In this document: positions 1 through 6,844 of the stretch, one piece after another
How the letters are laid out: each line of letters opens with the position of its first letter
How positions within the stretch are numbered: position 1 is the stretch's first letter
Assembly (NCBI RefSeq): GCF_021107415.1
Contig: NZ_JAIOSW010000281.1
Span: forward strand, 1 to 6,844
DNA from: Desulfobacula sp.
Lineage (GTDB): Bacteria > Desulfobacterota > Desulfobacteria > Desulfobacterales > Desulfobacteraceae
Reading direction: 5' to 3'
DNA: 6,844 bases
Notes under the pieces: generated by a model
What the model saw: only the letters and a program-made list of their open reading frames with translations
Database searches by the model: none
What the model was told of the DNA's origin: nothing
Program-made: the position numbers and the translations under genes

Positions 1-149
1 CATGCAATACAATCTTCGGGTCTTACTGCTTCTGCCTTCCCTTTCTTGTCAAATTCAAGTACGTTTTTGGGACAAAAGTGAATGCAGATGCCACACCCTT
101 TACACCATTCTTTATCGATTAAATGTTTGATAGTTTTGCCTTTTCCCAT
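1..149 (-). CDS. 4Fe-4S ferredoxin-like subunit, 2-oxoacid:acceptor oxidoreductase delta type (3' end outside window)
   Basis: Only the first 49 codons are present; the gene continues past the left edge. The visible protein begins MGKGKTIKHLIDKEWCKGCG and has a classic iron-sulfur signature C16-x2-C19-x2-C22-x3-C26-P. A new cysteine at 47 is followed by a partial codon beginning TG at position 50, consistent with the start of a second CxxC cluster. Small two-cluster ferredoxins with this N-terminus are typically the delta subunit of 2-oxoglutarate or branched-chain 2-oxoacid:ferredoxin oxidoreductases. These oxidatively decarboxylate 2-oxoacids to acyl-CoA and pass electrons to ferredoxin in the cytoplasm of anaerobes. 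The ATG at 149 is preceded by AAGAGGA four bases upstream, a strong ribosome binding site. The alpha, beta and gamma subunits would be expected just outside the window. An unrelated small ferredoxin is the main alternative. The iron-sulfur call is firm, the exact enzyme less so. Confidence 0.85.
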   Translation of the reverse strand, partial: MGKGKTIKHLIDKEWCKGCGICIHFCPKNVLEFDKKGKAEAVRPEDCIA

Positions 150-193
150 AATATCCTCTTAATAGATAATAAATATCTGTAAATTAAGGCCTT

Positions 194-222: not shown

Positions 223-457
223 GGATAACTCCATTAAAATGAATTTTATTCATTCTTTTTTATTTAATGAAAAAATGCAAGAAAAAAAGATAGGTTATGA
301 AAAAATAGAATGGTTGGGCCTTTTGGTATTTTATATATCATCTAAAATAATTAAACATTTGATTTTTGTATCAAAATATATGAACCTATGAGAGAAGATC
401 AAAGAAAATGGGGCGTATGAATGTTTGCAAAATAATTATTTGAAGTGATCAAATGTG

Positions 458-464
458 AAGAGGA
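458..464 (+). promoter_or_regulatory. ribosome binding site that decides the TrmO-family start
   Basis: AAGAGGA ends eight bases before the ATG at 473, an ideal Shine-Dalgarno placement. The same sequence precedes the ferredoxin-subunit gene. An in-frame GTG at 455 would put this site inside the coding region, and it has no comparable site of its own upstream. The ATG at 473 is therefore preferred. Confidence 0.65.
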
Positions 465-472
465 AGGTAGAT

Positions 473-973
473 ATGCAGGAAAAAGTCAATTGCCAATTTG
501 AACAAATAGGAATAATAAAAACGCCATATCAAGATAATGCACCCTATCAGCCAATAGATACAGACGAGGGTGAATTTTGTATAATGATCAACCCTCAATA
601 TGTCGATGGTTTGAATGAACTTAAGAAATTTCATTATATTTATGTCATTTATTATGCACATCTTACAAATCGTAAAATCAAAATGATGGTACAGCCACCA
701 TGGACTGGAGGGAAAAAAGTAGGTGTTTTCGCCAGTAGATCTCCAGTCCGGCCTAATTCTATTGGATTAAGCATTGTTCGCATTAAAAATATTATTAAAA
801 ATAAAATTTATACATCAGGATTAGATGTGTTTGACGGGACGCCTTTACTCGATATCAAACCATACATAAAGGATCTTGATAATAAATCCGATGCTAATTA
901 TGGGTGGATTAAAGAAATGGATGATATGGAGCATCTATCTTTGCACATTAAAGGCATCCCACATGATTATTAA
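473..973 (+). CDS. TrmO/TsaA-family SAM-dependent methyltransferase, short form (putative tRNA t6A37 methyltransferase)
   Basis: The 166-residue protein shows the core signatures of the TsaA/TrmO (UPF0066) beta-barrel family. These are IGIIKTPY at residues 12-19, GVFASRSPVRPNSIGLS at 84-100 (the 'RSPxRPNxIGLS' family hallmark) and DGTPLLDIKPYI at 121-132. Characterised TrmO uses S-adenosylmethionine to N6-methylate threonylcarbamoyladenosine at position 37 of tRNA-Thr, acting in the cytoplasm. This protein is much shorter than E. coli TrmO (about 235 residues) and has essentially only the N-terminal barrel. Many archaeal and bacterial homologues are short in the same way, and their substrates are less certain, so family membership is firm and the tRNA role is inferred. 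I chose the ATG at 473 over the in-frame GTG at 455 because of the well-placed AAGAGGA. The gene is followed after 18 bases by the glycosyltransferase, probably in one transcript, though no functional link is evident. Confidence 0.85.
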   Translation: MQEKVNCQFEQIGIIKTPYQDNAPYQPIDTDEGEFCIMINPQYVDGLNELKKFHYIYVIYYAHLTNRKIKMMVQPPWTGGKKVGVFASRSPVRPNSIGLSIVRIKNIIKNKIYTSGLDVFDGTPLLDIKPYIKDLDNKSDANYGWIKEMDDMEHLSLHIKGIPHDY

Positions 974-991
974 ATGATGGCTTAAATACAT

Positions 992-1825
992 ATGAACCCT
1001 CCTCTTGTCAGTGTTATTCTAACTACATTTAACCGGGCCTGGACCTTGAAAGATGCCATTGATTCGGTTCTTTTTCAGGATTATCCAAATATAGAATTAA
1101 TAGTTATTGATGATGGATCAGAAGACAACACGAAAGAGCTGCTCTGCGCATATAAGAATAAAATGATGGTTTTGACTCAGGAAAATTCAGGTGTCAGTGC
1201 TGCCAGAAATGCGGGGATAAAAAAGAGTAAAGGAGAATTTATTGCCCTGCTGGATTCCGACGATGCCTGGGATAAGAGAAAGATATCCTGCCAGGCAGCG
1301 TTTTTTAAACAAAATCCTGAAGCCCTGATCTGTCAGACCGAAGAGATCTGGATAAGAAATGGGAAACGGGTAAATCCTAAAGTAAAGCATAAGAAACCAT
1401 CAGGAATGATATTTGAGCCGTCATTAAATCTTTGCCTGGTAAGCCCGTCTGCAGTTATGATGAGAAGACAATTGTTTGAAGTGAAAGGATATTTTAATGA
1501 AGATTTCACGGTTTGCGAAGATTATGACCTGTGGCTTCGGGTCAGTTCAACCCTGCCGATTTTTTTGATTGATAAGCATTATACTATAAAAAGGGGGGGG
1601 CACAAAGACCAGCTCTCAAACTTTCATTCCCAGGATAAATTCAGAATCCTATCGTTGCTGAACCTCATAAAATCCAACAATCTTACACAAGATCAGGCTG
1701 CAAAGGCAAAAAGGGTTTTGAAAAAAAAATGTATTATCTATGGAAACGGCTGCATAAAACGTGGCAGAAAAGAAGAAGGGGAATACTATTTAGGTGTCGG
1801 ACAATCTGTTAAAATGTCTGGTTAA
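992..1825 (+). CDS. family 2 glycosyltransferase (GT-A fold)
   Basis: The 277-residue protein opens with the GT2 start PLVSVILTTFNRAWTLKDAI, followed by IDDGS (39-43, nucleotide-sugar binding) and NSGVSAARNAGI (65-76). DSDD at 88-91 holds the metal-binding D-x-D, and CEDYDLWLR (175-183) holds the acidic pair expected to supply the catalytic base. These are the standard elements of an inverting GT-A enzyme that transfers a sugar from a nucleotide donor, here probably in cell-surface or protein glycan synthesis. There is no membrane segment, so it should act at the cytoplasmic side. Donor and acceptor cannot be read from the sequence. The start is constrained because an in-frame TAA at 983-985 lies just upstream; no good ribosome binding site is seen, which suggests coupling to the preceding gene. 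An eight-G run encodes R201-G202-G203 and an A9 run (1721-1729) lies near the end. The stop overlaps that of the convergent FapA gene. Confidence 0.92.
   Translation: MNPPLVSVILTTFNRAWTLKDAIDSVLFQDYPNIELIVIDDGSEDNTKELLCAYKNKMMVLTQENSGVSAARNAGIKKSKGEFIALLDSDDAWDKRKISCQAAFFKQNPEALICQTEEIWIRNGKRVNPKVKHKKPSGMIFEPSLNLCLVSPSAVMMRRQLFEVKGYFNEDFTVCEDYDLWLRVSSTLPIFLIDKHYTIKRGGHKDQLSNFHSQDKFRILSLLNLIKSNNLTQDQAAKAKRVLKKKCIIYGNGCIKRGRKEEGEYYLGVGQSVKMSG
1593..1600 (+). repeat. eight-G homopolymer inside the glycosyltransferase
   Basis: GGGGGGGG (preceded by AAAAA) encodes the end of R201 plus G202 and G203, just before H204-K-D-Q. Gaining one G would bring a TAA into frame at 1636-1638, removing about 60 C-terminal residues. 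Losing one G also shifts the frame and ends in an early stop. The tract could therefore act as a slippage switch or be a sequencing-error hotspot. In the present reading the frame is open. Confidence 0.9.
1822..1825. other. shared TTAA forming the stop codons of two convergent genes
   Basis: The plus-strand glycosyltransferase ends with TAA at 1823-1825. The minus-strand FapA-like gene ends with TAA at 1824-1822. The palindrome TTAA serves both, so the genes overlap by four bases and there is no intergenic space. I see no intrinsic terminator at this junction. Confidence 0.95.
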
Positions 1826-4269
1826 AGATCTAAAATGTTCATTTCATAAAGAGGGATACCTTCTTCGTCTGAGCCTGTTTCCTGAATTTTACACCGGGAA
1901 GCATCCTCTTTTAGAATAATGGAAGAGTGGGGAGCCCTTATTATTGAATCCTGAGTGATGGTTTTTGCAACCGTGACAACCGCTTGAGGTCGGTCTTTTT
2001 TTGAAAATTCTTTTAATGCTTTTTTCTCGATAACAAGGTTTTTATTTTTTCCTTCCATTACAGCAATTTGATTTTTGATCTGTTCAATTTGGTCTGCAAT
2101 CTTATCCTGGGTTTCAAAAATGGTGTTTAGTTCCTTTTCAGCAATCTTTGCTTTTTCATTCAGCTTTTTAATCTTTTTTGTTTGGTCACCTTCTGCCTGG
2201 GAATTTTTTAATTCTTTTATTTCCAGCTGGGCACGATCCTGAATATGGGCTTTTTCAGATATCGTCAGATAGAGTTCCTGGTCCTGGTTTTCAAGTTTTT
2301 TAATTTCATCTTTTAATAAATTGGATTTACTGACAGATGCTTCCAAAGTTTCAACAATCTGTTTTTTCAGTATCTCAATATGTTCATCCACACCCACTTT
2401 GAGTTTAACAGGTTTTGAAGAAGAAGTGCCGATTTTACCAGCTTCAATACCCATTTTGGCTGTAACTTGAGAGGAAATAATATGGCCTGTTTGATTTTGG
2501 CAGCTTCCGCTTAACATAATATCAGAATCAATGATTTCCTTTGATATTACAAGGTCCCCAAATCCCATGATATTTGAATGATTGATAAATTTTGCATAAA
2601 TATTTCCATGAGCGGAAATATTTGAGTCAGTAATGCCTGCGGAAATATTCAAATCCCCTGACATGTCAATGGTCCCCCCTTCTATTTCCTGGGCAGTCAG
2701 GTTTATTCCCTTTACTGTGAACCCTTCTTTAATCATGCCTTTAACAACGATATTTCCTTTAAAGTCAATATTGCCGGTTTGAAAGTCAACATTACCAGGG
2801 ATTATAAGTTCCGGGTTAACTGAAATCGTCCCCATGGCATCAAGGTGGGGTTGGCCGTCAATTACGGCATGAATGCTAAGCTCGTCTTCCGACATTTCAG
2901 TACCGGAACCTGCAACGAAAACAGGATCAATTATTTCATTAACCGGGATAGGGATACCTGAAACAGTGATTCCGGGCTTGCTTTCCTGTGGGGGTATTTT
3001 TTGCGCAAGAAGATCTTCTTTGTTGACATGGGGGATATTTCCCCTTTCCCTGAAATCAATGCTTCCGTCTTCATTGATTTTCCCGGGATTTGTAAAATCT
3101 GTTTCAAAATGGAATTTTATTTCCCTGTCATGCCCATGAACCGGGTCTTCACCTGTGGCGATTATAATTTCTTCAGTAAATGATTTTGAAATCCAGATTT
3201 CAATGGCCTCATCGTCAAGTATGCCATAGGAAATCTGTTTTTGTCTGAGCATGTCAAGCAGGTCGGAAAGACCAGGTGTTGGTAACTTATTATCAGGATC
3301 TTTGATTTTTTTAATAGTTGCCTTTGTCTGACTTTCGGAAATTGAAATTTCAAAGTATTCATTAATAATATCATCTGTCGTATCAGTGGCGGTGTCATCA
3401 GCTTCAAAAAATTTGTCTGAACTTTGAATCTCAGTAGTTATCATCCGGGTGAGAGCCTCTTTTATAATTTTTTCTAGGAGTTCAGAAGGGGCGGGTTTGT
3501 TTTCCTGAAGGTCTTGTCCCTCTTCAGTCACGATTTTTCCAAAATTAAGATTTACCGGATCTGAATGATGTTTAGTTGTCACCCGATCAAACAAGCCTTG
3601 GATGGTTTTGCAAATGGCGATAAATTCATTTTTAAACGTATCCGGTGCAGGCGCAATCTTTTTATGTTCCATCAGGCTTGAAAGAGAGAGGTTTGTGTTT
3701 AAATCACTCTCATTTTCAGTACTTCTTTTTTTTGATTTCAACATCAATTTTTGTGCTTTTTTTTCATCAATAAGATGTTTATAAGCTGTATCTTTTTTTT
3801 TAAGGCTCTGTGCAATTTTAAACATTTGCTTATTCTGATGCACGGTTACCCTTTTTAGCTGTAGTCTTTTTAAGGTATGTTTGAAGTGTTTAAAACAGTT
3901 TTTGGCCTGATCTATCAGATCTTCATCATTAAACGGAGAAATGATGCAGGCATTGATTTCAGCTTTGTTAATGGCACTGATCAAGATATCGGGTTTGTCA
4001 GCAGGTATCAGCAGCATTCTTTGAGTTAAGGGTGAAATGGATTTTACCTTTTGTAAAATATCATCACCTTCCATTTTAGGCAGCTTAAAATTACTGATAA
4101 ACAGAGCGAATAGTGTTTTTTTTGATTGGGTAAGTGTGTTCAAAGCTTCTTTGGAGACCTGTTCACAAGTAACATCCCATCCTGATTTGGATAAAATGGA
4201 TTCGGCATGTTCCCTGATGGTATCATTGCTTTCAAGAATAATGACTTTTGGTTTTTTCTTTTCCGTCAT
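1822..4269 (-). CDS. pseudo-receiver-FapA (DUF342) fusion protein
   Basis: The 815-residue protein has four visible parts. Residues 7-125 form a CheY-like receiver that has lost its active site: aligned with the neighbouring regulator, D13, D14, D59, T87 and K110 become E13, S14, N60, I88 and S111. Residues 130-300 are a charged helical and low-complexity linker ending in DDTATDTTDD. Residues 300-620 match the FapA/DUF342 module, with GILDDEAIEIW (349-359), the conserved VHG at 377-379, and a beta-helix section of short 'GNVDFQTGNIDFKGNIVVKG'-type rungs from 491. Residues 630-755 are a strong coiled coil, followed by a short beta tail. FapA proteins are linked to flagellar assembly in Vibrio and are often of unknown role elsewhere. 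No signal peptide or membrane segment is seen. The ATG at 4269 overlaps the upstream TGA as ATGA, with AAGGTG (4282-4277) seven bases before it. The FapA call is strong, the cellular role unknown. Confidence 0.85.
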   Translation of the reverse strand: MTEKKKPKVIILESNDTIREHAESILSKSGWDVTCEQVSKEALNTLTQSKKTLFALFISNFKLPKMEGDDILQKVKSISPLTQRMLLIPADKPDILISAINKAEINACIISPFNDEDLIDQAKNCFKHFKHTLKRLQLKRVTVHQNKQMFKIAQSLKKKDTAYKHLIDEKKAQKLMLKSKKRSTENESDLNTNLSLSSLMEHKKIAPAPDTFKNEFIAICKTIQGLFDRVTTKHHSDPVNLNFGKIVTEEGQDLQENKPAPSELLEKIIKEALTRMITTEIQSSDKFFEADDTATDTTDDIINEYFEISISESQTKATIKKIKDPDNKLPTPGLSDLLDMLRQKQISYGILDDEAIEIWISKSFTEEIIIATGEDPVHGHDREIKFHFETDFTNPGKINEDGSIDFRERGNIPHVNKEDLLAQKIPPQESKPGITVSGIPIPVNEIIDPVFVAGSGTEMSEDELSIHAVIDGQPHLDAMGTISVNPELIIPGNVDFQTGNIDFKGNIVVKGMIKEGFTVKGINLTAQEIEGGTIDMSGDLNISAGITDSNISAHGNIYAKFINHSNIMGFGDLVISKEIIDSDIMLSGSCQNQTGHIISSQVTAKMGIEAGKIGTSSSKPVKLKVGVDEHIEILKKQIVETLEASVSKSNLLKDEIKKLENQDQELYLTISEKAHIQDRAQLEIKELKNSQAEGDQTKKIKKLNEKAKIAEKELNTIFETQDKIADQIEQIKNQIAVMEGKNKNLVIEKKALKEFSKKDRPQAVVTVAKTITQDSIIRAPHSSIILKEDASRCKIQETGSDEEGIPLYEMNILDL

Positions 4270-5009
4270 TTGATTTCACCTTTTATATCAGGCATCTCAA
4301 AGCCATTTCGATACGCTGCCTCACTGAATTGATCATAAAGCCCATTAATCGTATCTGAGAAAAGGGTTTGGATTTTTTCCAAACTAATACCCTGATCATT
4401 TTTTACGCTGTTTTCGATCTCATCTATAAGTGTATCGAGATTGACAGGTGTTTTAGATGAAAGATCCTTGATTTCTTTTTCAATTATTTCAATATCATGG
4501 TCAAGCTCATGGATTGTTTTGTTATGAGTTTTTGTTGTTTCCATCAATTCACAATTGAGGTCATATAATTTAGCATTCTGCTTTTTGGCAAGAGTTAAAA
4601 GTTTTTCATTGTCCAAAAAGAATTCATAAAGTTTAATACCCGACTTTATGTCTTTGACAAGATCATCATGCTCCCACGGCTTGACGATATACTTTTGAAT
4701 TTCCCCCTTATTGACGGCATTAATAATGGTTTCCATTTCAGAATGGGCTGTCATCAAAAACCGGGCAGTGTCAGGAGTGAGTTTTTTTGCATGTTCAAGA
4801 AACAGGGTTCCTTTCATGCCGTCCAAGTCTTGATCTGAGATAATTAAAGAAAAGGACTTTTTTGTTTTTTTTATTTCCTCCAGTGCTGATTCACCACTGT
4901 TTGCAAAAACATACTCGATTTTTTCCTTTTGGAGAATACGATCAAGGGCTTTACCGACCTGCTCATCATCGTCAACAACAAGTACTTTATGTTGATATTC
5001 AGATTCCAT
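4266..5009 (-). CDS. stand-alone response regulator with helical C-terminal extension
   Basis: This 247-residue protein begins with an intact receiver domain (8-125). It has the acidic pair D13/D14, phospho-acceptor D59 in IISDQDLDG, switch threonine T87 and lysine K110 in VKPW. The segment AVNKGEIQKYIVKPWEHDDL resembles receivers that usually precede HD-GYP or similar output domains. Here no such output follows. Instead residues 128-247 are predicted helices with coiled-coil character (about 130-180), ending with SLEKIQTLFSDTINGLYDQF. It should receive a phosphoryl group from a histidine kinase, most simply the one encoded 160 bases upstream, and act by protein contact rather than DNA binding. 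TAGAGG (5022-5017) lies seven bases before the ATG at 5009. The gene overlaps the FapA-fusion gene by four bases, and its product looks like a paralogue of that protein's N-terminal region, suggesting the two interact. Confidence 0.92.
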   Translation of the reverse strand: MESEYQHKVLVVDDDEQVGKALDRILQKEKIEYVFANSGESALEEIKKTKKSFSLIISDQDLDGMKGTLFLEHAKKLTPDTARFLMTAHSEMETIINAVNKGEIQKYIVKPWEHDDLVKDIKSGIKLYEFFLDNEKLLTLAKKQNAKLYDLNCELMETTKTHNKTIHELDHDIEIIEKEIKDLSSKTPVNLDTLIDEIENSVKNDQGISLEKIQTLFSDTINGLYDQFSEAAYRNGFEMPDIKGEIK

Positions 5010-5169: not shown

Positions 5170-6844
5170 TTATGGCACCCGGCCCTTTCCCAGCAATTTA
5201 TTAATGGAGTGTACATAATCTTTATTCCGGCAGGGCTTTGCCAGATGGTCGACATTGGCGTCTTTTTGTTTCAACTCTTTTATGGATTCTAAAAATTCTA
5301 TATTACCGGAGATAAACAGTATTGGAATGGTTTTGTCTGTTGCTCTTATATGATTATATACATCCATTCCATTAATATTTCCTGGAAGAATATAATCCAG
5401 ACTTATAAAATCATATGGGTTCCTATCAAATAAATCCTTTGCAATCTGCCCGTTAGAAGCAGTATCAACCTTGTGACTACAGGGTTCTTGTGTTAATATC
5501 CTATATTGTATATCCGATATGGCTGTTTCATCTTCAACAAGAAGAATATACTTTTCAAAATGTGATAGTTCTTTACGGAATTTTATTTTTTCTTCACTTG
5601 TCAGCTCTTTTTCAATGACCGGCAGACTTATAGTGAATTTTGTGCCTGAGTTAAATTCCGACTCAATGGAAATATTGCCCTTGTGTTGTTCGATATATTT
5701 TTTTACATTGGCCATTCCATAACCAGTTCCTTTAATTGTGCTTTCATAAGAACCTGTCATATCCTTAGTTCCCTTTAGGGTGAAAGAAGGCTCATAAATT
5801 TTTGCAAGATGTTCTTGGGAAATCCCACACCCGTTATCCTCAATTTCAAAGCAGATATTGTCGTTTAGGCAATATGTTCGAATAATTATTCTGGGATGTT
5901 CAGACATACTTATGGCATGGATTGAATTTTGTATTAGATTTATAAGCGCATGCTCGATCATTCCGGCATCGGCGAGCAAATCAGGTACGCCTGGTTTATC
6001 CTCCTTTATCAGTTCAATGCCTTTGAGATCCTTTTTCAACAGACTTAGAACAAGATCAATTTTTTCATTGATTCTGAAAAATTCCTGCCTGGGCTCCTGA
6101 TCCTTGGCAAAGGCAACCAGGTTTCTGGTTAAGTTTTTCCCTCGTATGGTCTGTTCAAATATTAATTCAAGTGTTTTTTTTGTCTTTTCATCTTTGCAAT
6201 CCATCAGTGAGAGCTCGGTATTCCCCATAATAATGCCCAAAATATTATTAAAATCATGGGCCATTTTTCCAGCAACCTGACCAACCAACGCTAGTTTTTT
6301 ATGTTCTCCTGCAATTTTTTGAGCCTTTATTTTTTCTTTTTGAGCCATTTTCAGTTCGGTAATATCATGGGCAACGACCCGTGCTCTTTTTAATTTTCCA
6401 TTTTTATAGACAAAATCAGTGTTCAAAATGACACATAATTTTTGTCCATCTTTTTTAACAATGTTGTATTCAACGCTGCCGGCAAGATCTTCTCTTGTAG
6501 AAAGCTTTTCAAGTCTTCCAATATATAAATTTTTACTGTCTTCCGTTAAAAGATCCAAAGGATTCATGGACAAAAATTCTTCTTCTGAATAACCGGTATA
6601 TTTGCACATTATATCATTAACGTTAATGAATTTGACTTTTTCAAAATCGATCTCATAGTTTCCCGCCGGAGCATTCTGAAAAAGGTGTCTATATTTTTTC
6701 TCACTTTCCCGTACAGCATCGTCAGAATGTTTGCGGTCAATAGCGATGGCCATCTGATCAGAGACCACCGAAAGTACTTGCAAATCTTGTTTTTTGTAAA
6801 GACTGGAATTTAAATAGCTCTGGACAGCCACCACTCCGATAACC
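5170..6844 (-). CDS. hybrid sensor histidine kinase, GAF-PAS-HisKA-HATPase-receiver (5' end outside window)
   Basis: The reading frame is open to the right edge. Codons before the GTG at 6834 read V-I-G and continue into VVAVQSY, a typical end of a GAF sensor domain, so that GTG is internal. Numbering from it: the GAF remnant is about 1-35, a PAS domain with its C-terminal PAC part 40-165, and the HisKA helix has H193 in the MAHDFNNILG motif. The ATPase domain carries N303 in the N box, DNGCGI (333-338) and GTGYGMANV (369-377). A C-terminal receiver (428-548) has E434/D435, phospho-acceptor D480, S509 and K533. It should autophosphorylate on H193, and its receiver may relay, store or drain the phosphate. 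No membrane segment is in view; the input end is not seen. It ends 160 bases upstream of the response regulator, same strand, so that protein is a likely partner. The signal sensed cannot be told. Confidence 0.93.
   Translation of the reverse strand, partial: VIGVVAVQSYLNSSLYKKQDLQVLSVVSDQMAIAIDRKHSDDAVRESEKKYRHLFQNAPAGNYEIDFEKVKFINVNDIMCKYTGYSEEEFLSMNPLDLLTEDSKNLYIGRLEKLSTREDLAGSVEYNIVKKDGQKLCVILNTDFVYKNGKLKRARVVAHDITELKMAQKEKIKAQKIAGEHKKLALVGQVAGKMAHDFNNILGIIMGNTELSLMDCKDEKTKKTLELIFEQTIRGKNLTRNLVAFAKDQEPRQEFFRINEKIDLVLSLLKKDLKGIELIKEDKPGVPDLLADAGMIEHALINLIQNSIHAISMSEHPRIIIRTYCLNDNICFEIEDNGCGISQEHLAKIYEPSFTLKGTKDMTGSYESTIKGTGYGMANVKKYIEQHKGNISIESEFNSGTKFTISLPVIEKELTSEEKIKFRKELSHFEKYILLVEDETAISDIQYRILTQEPCSHKVDTASNGQIAKDLFDRNPYDFISLDYILPGNINGMDVYNHIRATDKTIPILFISGNIEFLESIKELKQKDANVDHLAKPCRNKDYVHSINKLLGKGRVP

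Follow-up and report, generated by a model that had tools for sequence, protein, structure and literature searches.

The stretch of DNA analysed here (6,844 nucleotides from Desulfobacula sp., referred to as the window) encodes on its reverse strand a fusion between a pseudo-receiver and FapA (positions 1822..4269, 815 aa). The open reading frame matches the Pfam families Response_reg at residues 9-121, FapA_N at residues 306-476 and FapA at residues 486-740. Scores of 128.7 bits for FapA_N (cut-off 27) and 92.6 bits for FapA (cut-off 31), judged by the curated Pfam cut-offs, place the protein in the FapA / DUF342 family; the score of its receiver lies barely above the Response_reg cut-off. 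The pseudo-receiver domain comprises residues 1-128 (3886..4269, reverse strand). Residues 1-238 (3556..4269, reverse strand) are homologous to the whole of the neighboring response regulator, receiver and helical tail included, as judged by hhalign, and residues 306-815 (1825..3354, reverse strand, stop codon excluded) comprise FapA_N, a beta-solenoid, an antiparallel helical hairpin and a C-terminal beta domain, according to Pfam and the structural model.

The 247-aa response regulator is encoded upstream on the same strand (4266..5009; ORF call, Pfam and alignment), its gene overlapping the fusion gene by 4 nt. It carries a complete phosphorylation set (D13, D14, D59, T87 and K110) and has no recognised output domain above the Pfam cut-offs. 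Further upstream, a hybrid histidine kinase with PAS, HisKA and HATPase domains and a receiver bearing E-D, D, S and K (5170..6843, reverse strand) is cut by the window end. On the other side, a family 2 glycosyltransferase gene (992..1825, forward strand) is convergent with the fusion gene and overlaps its end by 4 nt; of the 19 loci with the window's form of the fusion (type I) that extend past the fusion gene, 16 have a glycosyltransferase at this position. The window also holds a TrmO-type tRNA methyltransferase gene (455-973, forward strand; Pfam), which has no match in the stretches listed around the relatives' fusion genes, and, on visual inspection, what looks like the first part of a small ferredoxin-like protein rich in cysteine (1-150, reverse strand). 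Locus L001 carries pyruvate/2-oxoacid:ferredoxin oxidoreductase genes on the side that matches this frame, so synteny may continue past it.

A receiver fold without phosphorylation residues

Alignment of the fusion protein with its neighbor places E13, S14, N60, I88 and S111 opposite D13, D14, D59, T87 and K110 of the regulator. The initial annotation, which had described a receiver fold with all five phosphotransfer residues changed, is thus confirmed, with the qualification that E13 is a conservative change, the other four being non-conservative. The structure prediction that it had proposed for the N-terminus, made with AlphaFold2 and 26 homologous N-termini, yields a complete, intact receiver fold followed by a single helix (residues 115-191) that is continuous with alpha5. 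In the model of all 815 residues (mean pLDDT 82.8, pTM 0.49), the long helix is placed at 115-187. Comparison of the fusion N-terminus with the PDB returned solved receivers as top matches; a sequence search for a solved FapA structure gave matches to the receiver part only, among the 60 of 125 matches listed. The N-terminus has the sequence features of a pseudo-receiver: it is recognised as a receiver computationally and by its fold, and it is missing key residues of the catalytic quintet. With N60 at the acceptor position it is also an aspartate-less receiver, and the full DD, D, T/S and K set of a phosphorylatable receiver-FapA regulator is not present.

Catalytic loss is shared by a whole family

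Homologues were collected with three queries, the window protein (best 120 of 182 matches), an intact receiver-FapA fusion (best 120 of 490) and a second pseudo form, termed type II (best 120 of 136). FapA proteins without a receiver hit numbered 5, 3 and 6 in the window, intact and type II lists, respectively, and those with an incomplete receiver 3, 1 and 53, mostly missing the DD columns. Among the 115 scorable relatives within the best 120 of 182 matches to the window protein, Asp60 is present in 12 and absent in 103, Thr/Ser88 is present in none and Lys111 in one, so that no working phosphorylation set was found among them. Asp and Lys never occur together in the 113 relatives that have all five columns (7 of the 120 proteins lack some of these columns and were left out of the pattern count). 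Acceptor substitutes in the 115 relatives are N, S, G or C and never E, so that the constitutive-state mimic suggested by the initial annotation would at any rate not be a classical phosphomimic. The Thr site is occupied by Val in 80 and by Ile or Leu in 32.

The type II search (best 120 of 136) added 113 further proteins, 7 of the 120 being already in the window-query set, and 54 of them have complete receivers. Neither the acceptor nor the Lys is present in 51 of these, and in the other 3 only the Asp survives. The acceptor Asp is found in 5 of the 105 type II proteins with a scorable acceptor position, none of which has the Lys. Across the two pseudo-form lists (best 120 of 182 and best 120 of 136), none of the 166 complete pseudo-receivers holds a working set. 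The intact-fusion query returned 92 FapA proteins (28 of the best 120 of 490 matches have no FapA), and all 88 complete receivers among them are intact. The same division appears in genomes: the best 80 of 209 loci, retrieved with the family of the window protein as query, comprise, window included, 42 pseudo and 25 intact receivers and none intermediate. The threonine is not lost in every case, since Thr or Ser stands at this site in 6 of the 42 pseudo-receivers from loci and window, all outside type I.

Misalignment of the five sites was considered and rejected, as two differently made alignments agree except for P0105, whose start is incompletely aligned in one of them. Close homologues with Asp60, which the initial annotation had named as refuting its reading, do exist, but they contradict it in form only: all 12 lack Thr/Ser and Lys. 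As for its question whether receiver-FapA fusions always lose the five positions, the set is lost throughout the pseudo clade but intact in the sister class (88/88). Catalytic loss is a property of the whole family rather than of the window gene alone.

Phylogeny of the receiver-FapA fusions

Most loci that encode an N-terminal receiver-FapA fusion are assigned in their records to Desulfobacterales, or to Deltaproteobacteria and Proteobacteria without further placement. All trees were quick and unrooted, with SH-aLRT support and without bootstrap. The receiver tree groups all 42 pseudo-receivers in a single clade (SH-aLRT 100%). This clade persists when the five sites and the K-3 switch position are masked, in a tree to which only 30 other receivers were added, and is then joined only by the rows of L040 and L044, which are pieces of pseudo genes. 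A FapA-only tree, built without receiver columns, likewise unites the 42 pseudo fusions with three rows whose receiver is unscorable (98%); L024, L030 and L040 are unscorable in this tree. The sister clade (100%) comprises 13 intact fusions and two rows without a detectable receiver, L026, cut at a contig end, and L040, a shortened frame, and both clades together are supported at 97%. The simplest reading of these trees is a single loss, which would have occurred at the base of the pseudo clade.

Several variants were seen along the way. In L040 (1989-4438), a pseudo-receiver-FapA gene is split into two overlapping frames by a frameshift or an assembly error. L064-L067, from poorly known bacteria, encode FapA with an intact C-terminal receiver, apparently an independent fusion, and were excluded from the receiver trees. 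Desulfamplus loci (L050, L051, L052, L054, L055, L057, L060, L063) encode intact receiver-FapA proteins of about 960-1100 aa, in tandem pairs in L051, L052, L054 and L057; a histidine kinase follows them in L051, L052, L054, L055 and L057.

Pairing with the neighboring response regulator

Residues 1-238 of the fusion align with the whole neighboring regulator at an hhalign probability of 99.9 (E 4e-36). The tail after the receiver, aligned alone, still reaches a probability of 94.0 (E 1.4e-7), compared with at most 1.2 for 20 column-shuffled controls and 0.2 for the reversed one. By this whole-length profile alignment, the fusion resembles a FapA protein to which a degenerate regulator copy has been attached. 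Because similar helical tails may be more widespread, the order in which the two copies arose is an inference. The N-terminus is an old, selected pseudo-receiver homologous to the whole regulator encoded next door.

Of 41 pseudo loci (among the best 80 of 209), 40 have a regulator gene of the neighbor's family upstream. In 30 of them it is the directly adjacent gene, partial at a contig edge in L004, L018 and L020. An intact sister FapA gene stands between regulator and pseudo fusion in 9 of the 41; in L036 the regulator is farther upstream, beyond an intact FapA gene and other genes, and in the remaining locus, L026, the contig starts inside the upstream sister gene. The tandem order of regulator, intact receiver-FapA and pseudo-receiver-FapA, all in the same direction, is seen in L023, L027, L033, L037, L041, L042, L043, L048 and L059. 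Overlap between the frames of regulator and fusion, with start codons assumed, was measured in 16 of the 21 type I loci; it is present in 15 and amounts to 4 nt in 11, as in the window. An intact receiver-FapA protein as an obligate partner was rejected for Desulfospira joergensenii (G007), whose six FapA_N frames are 668-832 aa long with none of the 960-aa kind; its second pseudo gene directly follows a regulator (L081; read by eye).

The regulators, too, are drifting. Among 42 of them, window included, 31 have the full set, 6 have lost the Asp and all 42 keep the Lys. With 11 of the 42 no longer complete, phospho-control cannot be a universal or the sole role of the pair. In L010 and L016, two loci of one genome, both regulators read E-G-A-A-K and both fusions keep Asp60 without the Lys, an apparent swap of residue patterns between regulator and fusion. 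A conserved three-gene system of kinase, regulator and FapA was rejected as far as the kinase is concerned: in 10 type I loci about 6 kb of upstream sequence is available, and no kinase match was seen in any of them. A kinase gene does immediately precede the regulator in L024, whose receiver is unscored, and in L083, a type II locus.

The initial annotation had suggested the adjacent regulator as a docking partner. Persistent pairing and whole-length paralogy lend this indirect support, binding being a prediction from gene order and homology; the kinase of the window proved not to be a conserved neighbor in type I relatives. Distance coevolution was rejected as proof of binding. Across 14 loci and the window, distances of pseudo-receiver and neighbor receiver correlate with r 0.66 (partial 0.42 given the glycosyltransferase), and the same correlation with FapA is equally high (0.65, partial 0.41) and hence not specific.

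A proposed complex of regulator and fusion protein

In the reading that we prefer, and to which we give about an even chance, the fusion and its co-encoded regulator form a complex in which the pseudo-receiver is the non-phosphorylatable member. A duplication of the regulator would have supplied the copy that became joined to FapA. This copy would no longer switch and would serve as the fixed half of the complex; in tandem loci the intact receiver-FapA protein may be a further partner. Phosphorylation of the regulator, where still possible, would change this complex and thereby act in trans on the beta-solenoid of FapA, comparable to the response of Vibrio FapA to the phosphorylation state of EIIA-Glc. 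HubP is reportedly a further partner of Vibrio FapA. The effect would probably be on where a flagellum or another surface structure is placed, or on how it is assembled. Pfam found no flagellar gene among the 10 neighboring proteins of two loci except for one additional FapA_N protein, and a flagellin C-terminal domain occurs in 17 of 17 relatives' genomes, which is compatible with a role in flagellar assembly without being a test of it. The same 17 genomes hold 4 to 13 FapA_N matches each; FapA is apparently expanded in these bacteria.

Conservation of the pseudo-receiver and of the neighbor receiver was compared in 17 loci and the window. Relative to the neighbor receiver, it is gained mainly in beta2 and in the beta3-alpha3 and alpha3-beta4 loops, and over 124 positions the two receivers do not differ overall (p 0.20). 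Greater conservation of the alpha4-beta5-alpha5 face was not found, its values (0.80, 0.75 and 0.68 for the three elements) being hardly above those of the neighbor (0.77, 0.76 and 0.60). According to the accessible part of PMC12632262, FrzS contacts its partner via the alpha3-beta4-alpha4 surface. The conserved alpha3-beta4 loop recalls this surface, and by analogy docking at alpha3-beta4 would be as plausible as docking at alpha4-beta5-alpha5.

An unlikely but credible alternative is a constitutive assembly domain, in which pseudo-receiver and long helix dimerise permanently and fix the oligomeric state of FapA, while the regulator serves another purpose or is simply co-expressed. The continuity of the long helix with alpha5 fits such a domain, as does the loss of both residues of Y-T coupling (I88 and C108), which argues against an ordinary phospho-switch. 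Permanent dimerisation leaves unexplained, however, why a paralogous regulator stands upstream in 40 of 41 loci, usually with overlapping frames in type I, and why this regulator keeps its Lys in every case and its full set in 31 of 42.

A conserved cysteine at the switch position

Tyr or Phe is found at K-3 in receivers that use Y-T coupling (PMC12632262, accessible part), and one or the other occupies this position in all 88 complete intact receivers (best 120 of 490). In complete pseudo-receivers, K-3 is Cys in 162 of 166 and Ser in the remaining 4 (best 120 of 182 plus best 120 of 136); the corresponding residue of the window protein is C108. Genomic loci give the same picture, with Cys at K-3 in 41 of 42 pseudo-receivers, in 1 of 25 intact ones (Desulfamplus L060) and in none of the 42 neighbor regulators. 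Further cysteines separate the two groups: Cys35 is present in 27 of 42 pseudo vs 0 of 25 intact fusions, Cys125 in 34 vs 0, Cys590 in 37 vs 1 and Cys793 in 36 vs 2. Cysteine accounts for 4 of the 45 columns that distinguish the pseudo fusions from their 13 intact sisters (binomial p 8e-4 given 0.93% Cys, a generous value because the cysteines were singled out after inspection).

These residues could belong to a rewired thiol or ligand/metal switch centred on C108, with C35, C125, C590 and C793 taking part, a reading that we consider improbable. It would account for the near-exclusive occurrence of Cys at K-3 in pseudo-receivers and for the four cysteines among the clade-separating columns, and redox pseudo-receivers do exist, namely RitR and HP1021 (PMC12632262, accessible part). 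On the other hand, C108 may be a mere packing residue, C35 and C125 are missing from a good share of the pseudo loci, and intact L060 also has the K-3 Cys. None of the conserved cysteines (35, 108, 125, 590 and 793) matches the RitR linker or the HP1021 site at DD+19, a position held in the window protein by D32 or V33, depending on the D counted from. A combination in which Asp-Lys chemistry was exchanged for cysteine chemistry, an almost invariant Cys taking the place of the aromatic Y-T coupling residue and further conserved Cys being gained in alpha5 and the FapA part, giving FapA a thiol, sulfide or metal switch in sulfate reducers while the regulator adds a phosphorylation-based input to the same complex, is more doubtful still.

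Residual phosphorylation, selection and decay

We regard it as very improbable that weak phosphorylation persists, with the Asp60 lineages as poor working receivers and the Asn/Ser forms as later losses. The aspartate does survive in 12 of 115 relatives (best 120 of 182) and in 5 of 105 type II proteins (best 120 of 136), and phosphorylation can survive changes at DD, T or K (PMC12632262, accessible part). Yet no Asp60 member has the Lys, the 12 of the window set lack Thr/Ser as well, and the Asp60 loci present on the trees (L010 and L016) fall inside the pseudo clade.

Selection was assessed by pairwise dN/dS for 14 chosen pairs from 10 loci and the window, with ratios that are rough because dS is as high as about 2.2, and 4.2 for the linker in one pair. 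The pseudo-receiver ranges from 0.065 to 0.194 (13 pairs; the 14th is saturated), compared with 0.106-0.25 for FapA, 0.138-0.355 for the neighbor receiver and 0.171-0.498 for the linker (14 pairs each). It lies below FapA in 13 of 13 pairs and below the neighbor receiver in 12 of 13, the exception being L010-L016 (0.152 against 0.138). Mean pairwise amino acid difference, taken over 14 loci and the window, follows the same order, with 0.40 for the pseudo-receiver, 0.42 for FapA, 0.44 for the neighbor receiver and 0.72 for the linker. The pseudo-receiver is thus among the most constrained parts and is not decaying, and the family-wide state, low dN/dS and intact fold bear out the earlier proposal that a non-phosphorylatable pseudo-receiver has been selected for. 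Decay, with a dying receiver retained solely through its fusion to a needed FapA, is scarcely credible: the Pfam score barely above cut-off would suit it, but dN/dS and divergence are no higher than in FapA and far under the linker, the fold is intact, and the lost sites prefer few residues (Val, Ile or Leu, for example, at the former Thr position), to which shared ancestry contributes.

Comparison with known systems

Strong selection on the pseudo-receiver, next to a sister protein that is usually phosphorylatable, suggests that the switch is not broken but binds a partner or has been rewired in some other way. The family offers a clean natural experiment, one output domain with intact and dead receivers in sister clades, each clade next to regulators of one type and in some cases the two within a single run of genes. 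It could separate a docking half from a constitutive assembler and from a rewired sensor, and the near-invariant cysteine at the switch position gives a concrete residue of interest.

Our literature search covered open-access papers (subscription papers lay outside its scope), and found none on receivers joined to FapA/DUF342; "FapA" is absent from the main text of PMC12632262 and PMC4395418, DUF342 having been looked for only in the latter. Pseudo-receivers as such are already known, and are estimated to make up several percent of receivers (PMC12632262, accessible part). The window protein resembles the pseudo- and aspartate-less receivers of bacteria (PF00072; PMC12632262 and PMC4395418, as far as accessible) in its receiver fold, its missing catalytic residues and its uncommon output. 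It differs from those described in that the loss is fixed across a clade, with Cys at K-3 and an intact sister clade that has the same output. New are therefore the FapA output, the clade-wide fixation beside intact sisters, the whole-length paralogy with a persistent neighbor and the Cys at the switch position. The intact receiver-FapA proteins of Desulfobacterales (e.g., L042 7098-9986) share the architecture of receiver, FapA_N and FapA solenoid, but have the full set and an aromatic K-3 residue (88/88, best 120 of 490) and are mostly about 960 aa long, compared with about 820 aa for the pseudo form.

Pairing of a pseudo- or atypical receiver with another response regulator has precedents in the receiver/pseudo-receiver heterodimers of CmrR-CmrT in Clostridioides difficile, whose relevance is unclear according to the authors (PMC12548384, accessible part), and in the heterodimers of BldM/WhiI of Streptomyces, where an atypical receiver is involved (PMC12632262, accessible part). 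Those proteins are transcription regulators, whereas here the pairing is known from the genes, the output is FapA and the partner is without a recognised output domain. In PleD, composed of receiver, pseudo-receiver and diguanylate cyclase, phosphorylation of the true receiver acts via the adjoining pseudo-receiver (PMC12632262, accessible part); PleD is one chain, while two overlapping genes and a FapA output are found here. Vibrio FapA binds only dephosphorylated EIIA-Glc, and is thus a FapA-family protein that responds to the phosphorylation state of a partner, as proposed for the fusion described here; it differs in having another partner and no receiver fusion (PMC6877527, accessible part).
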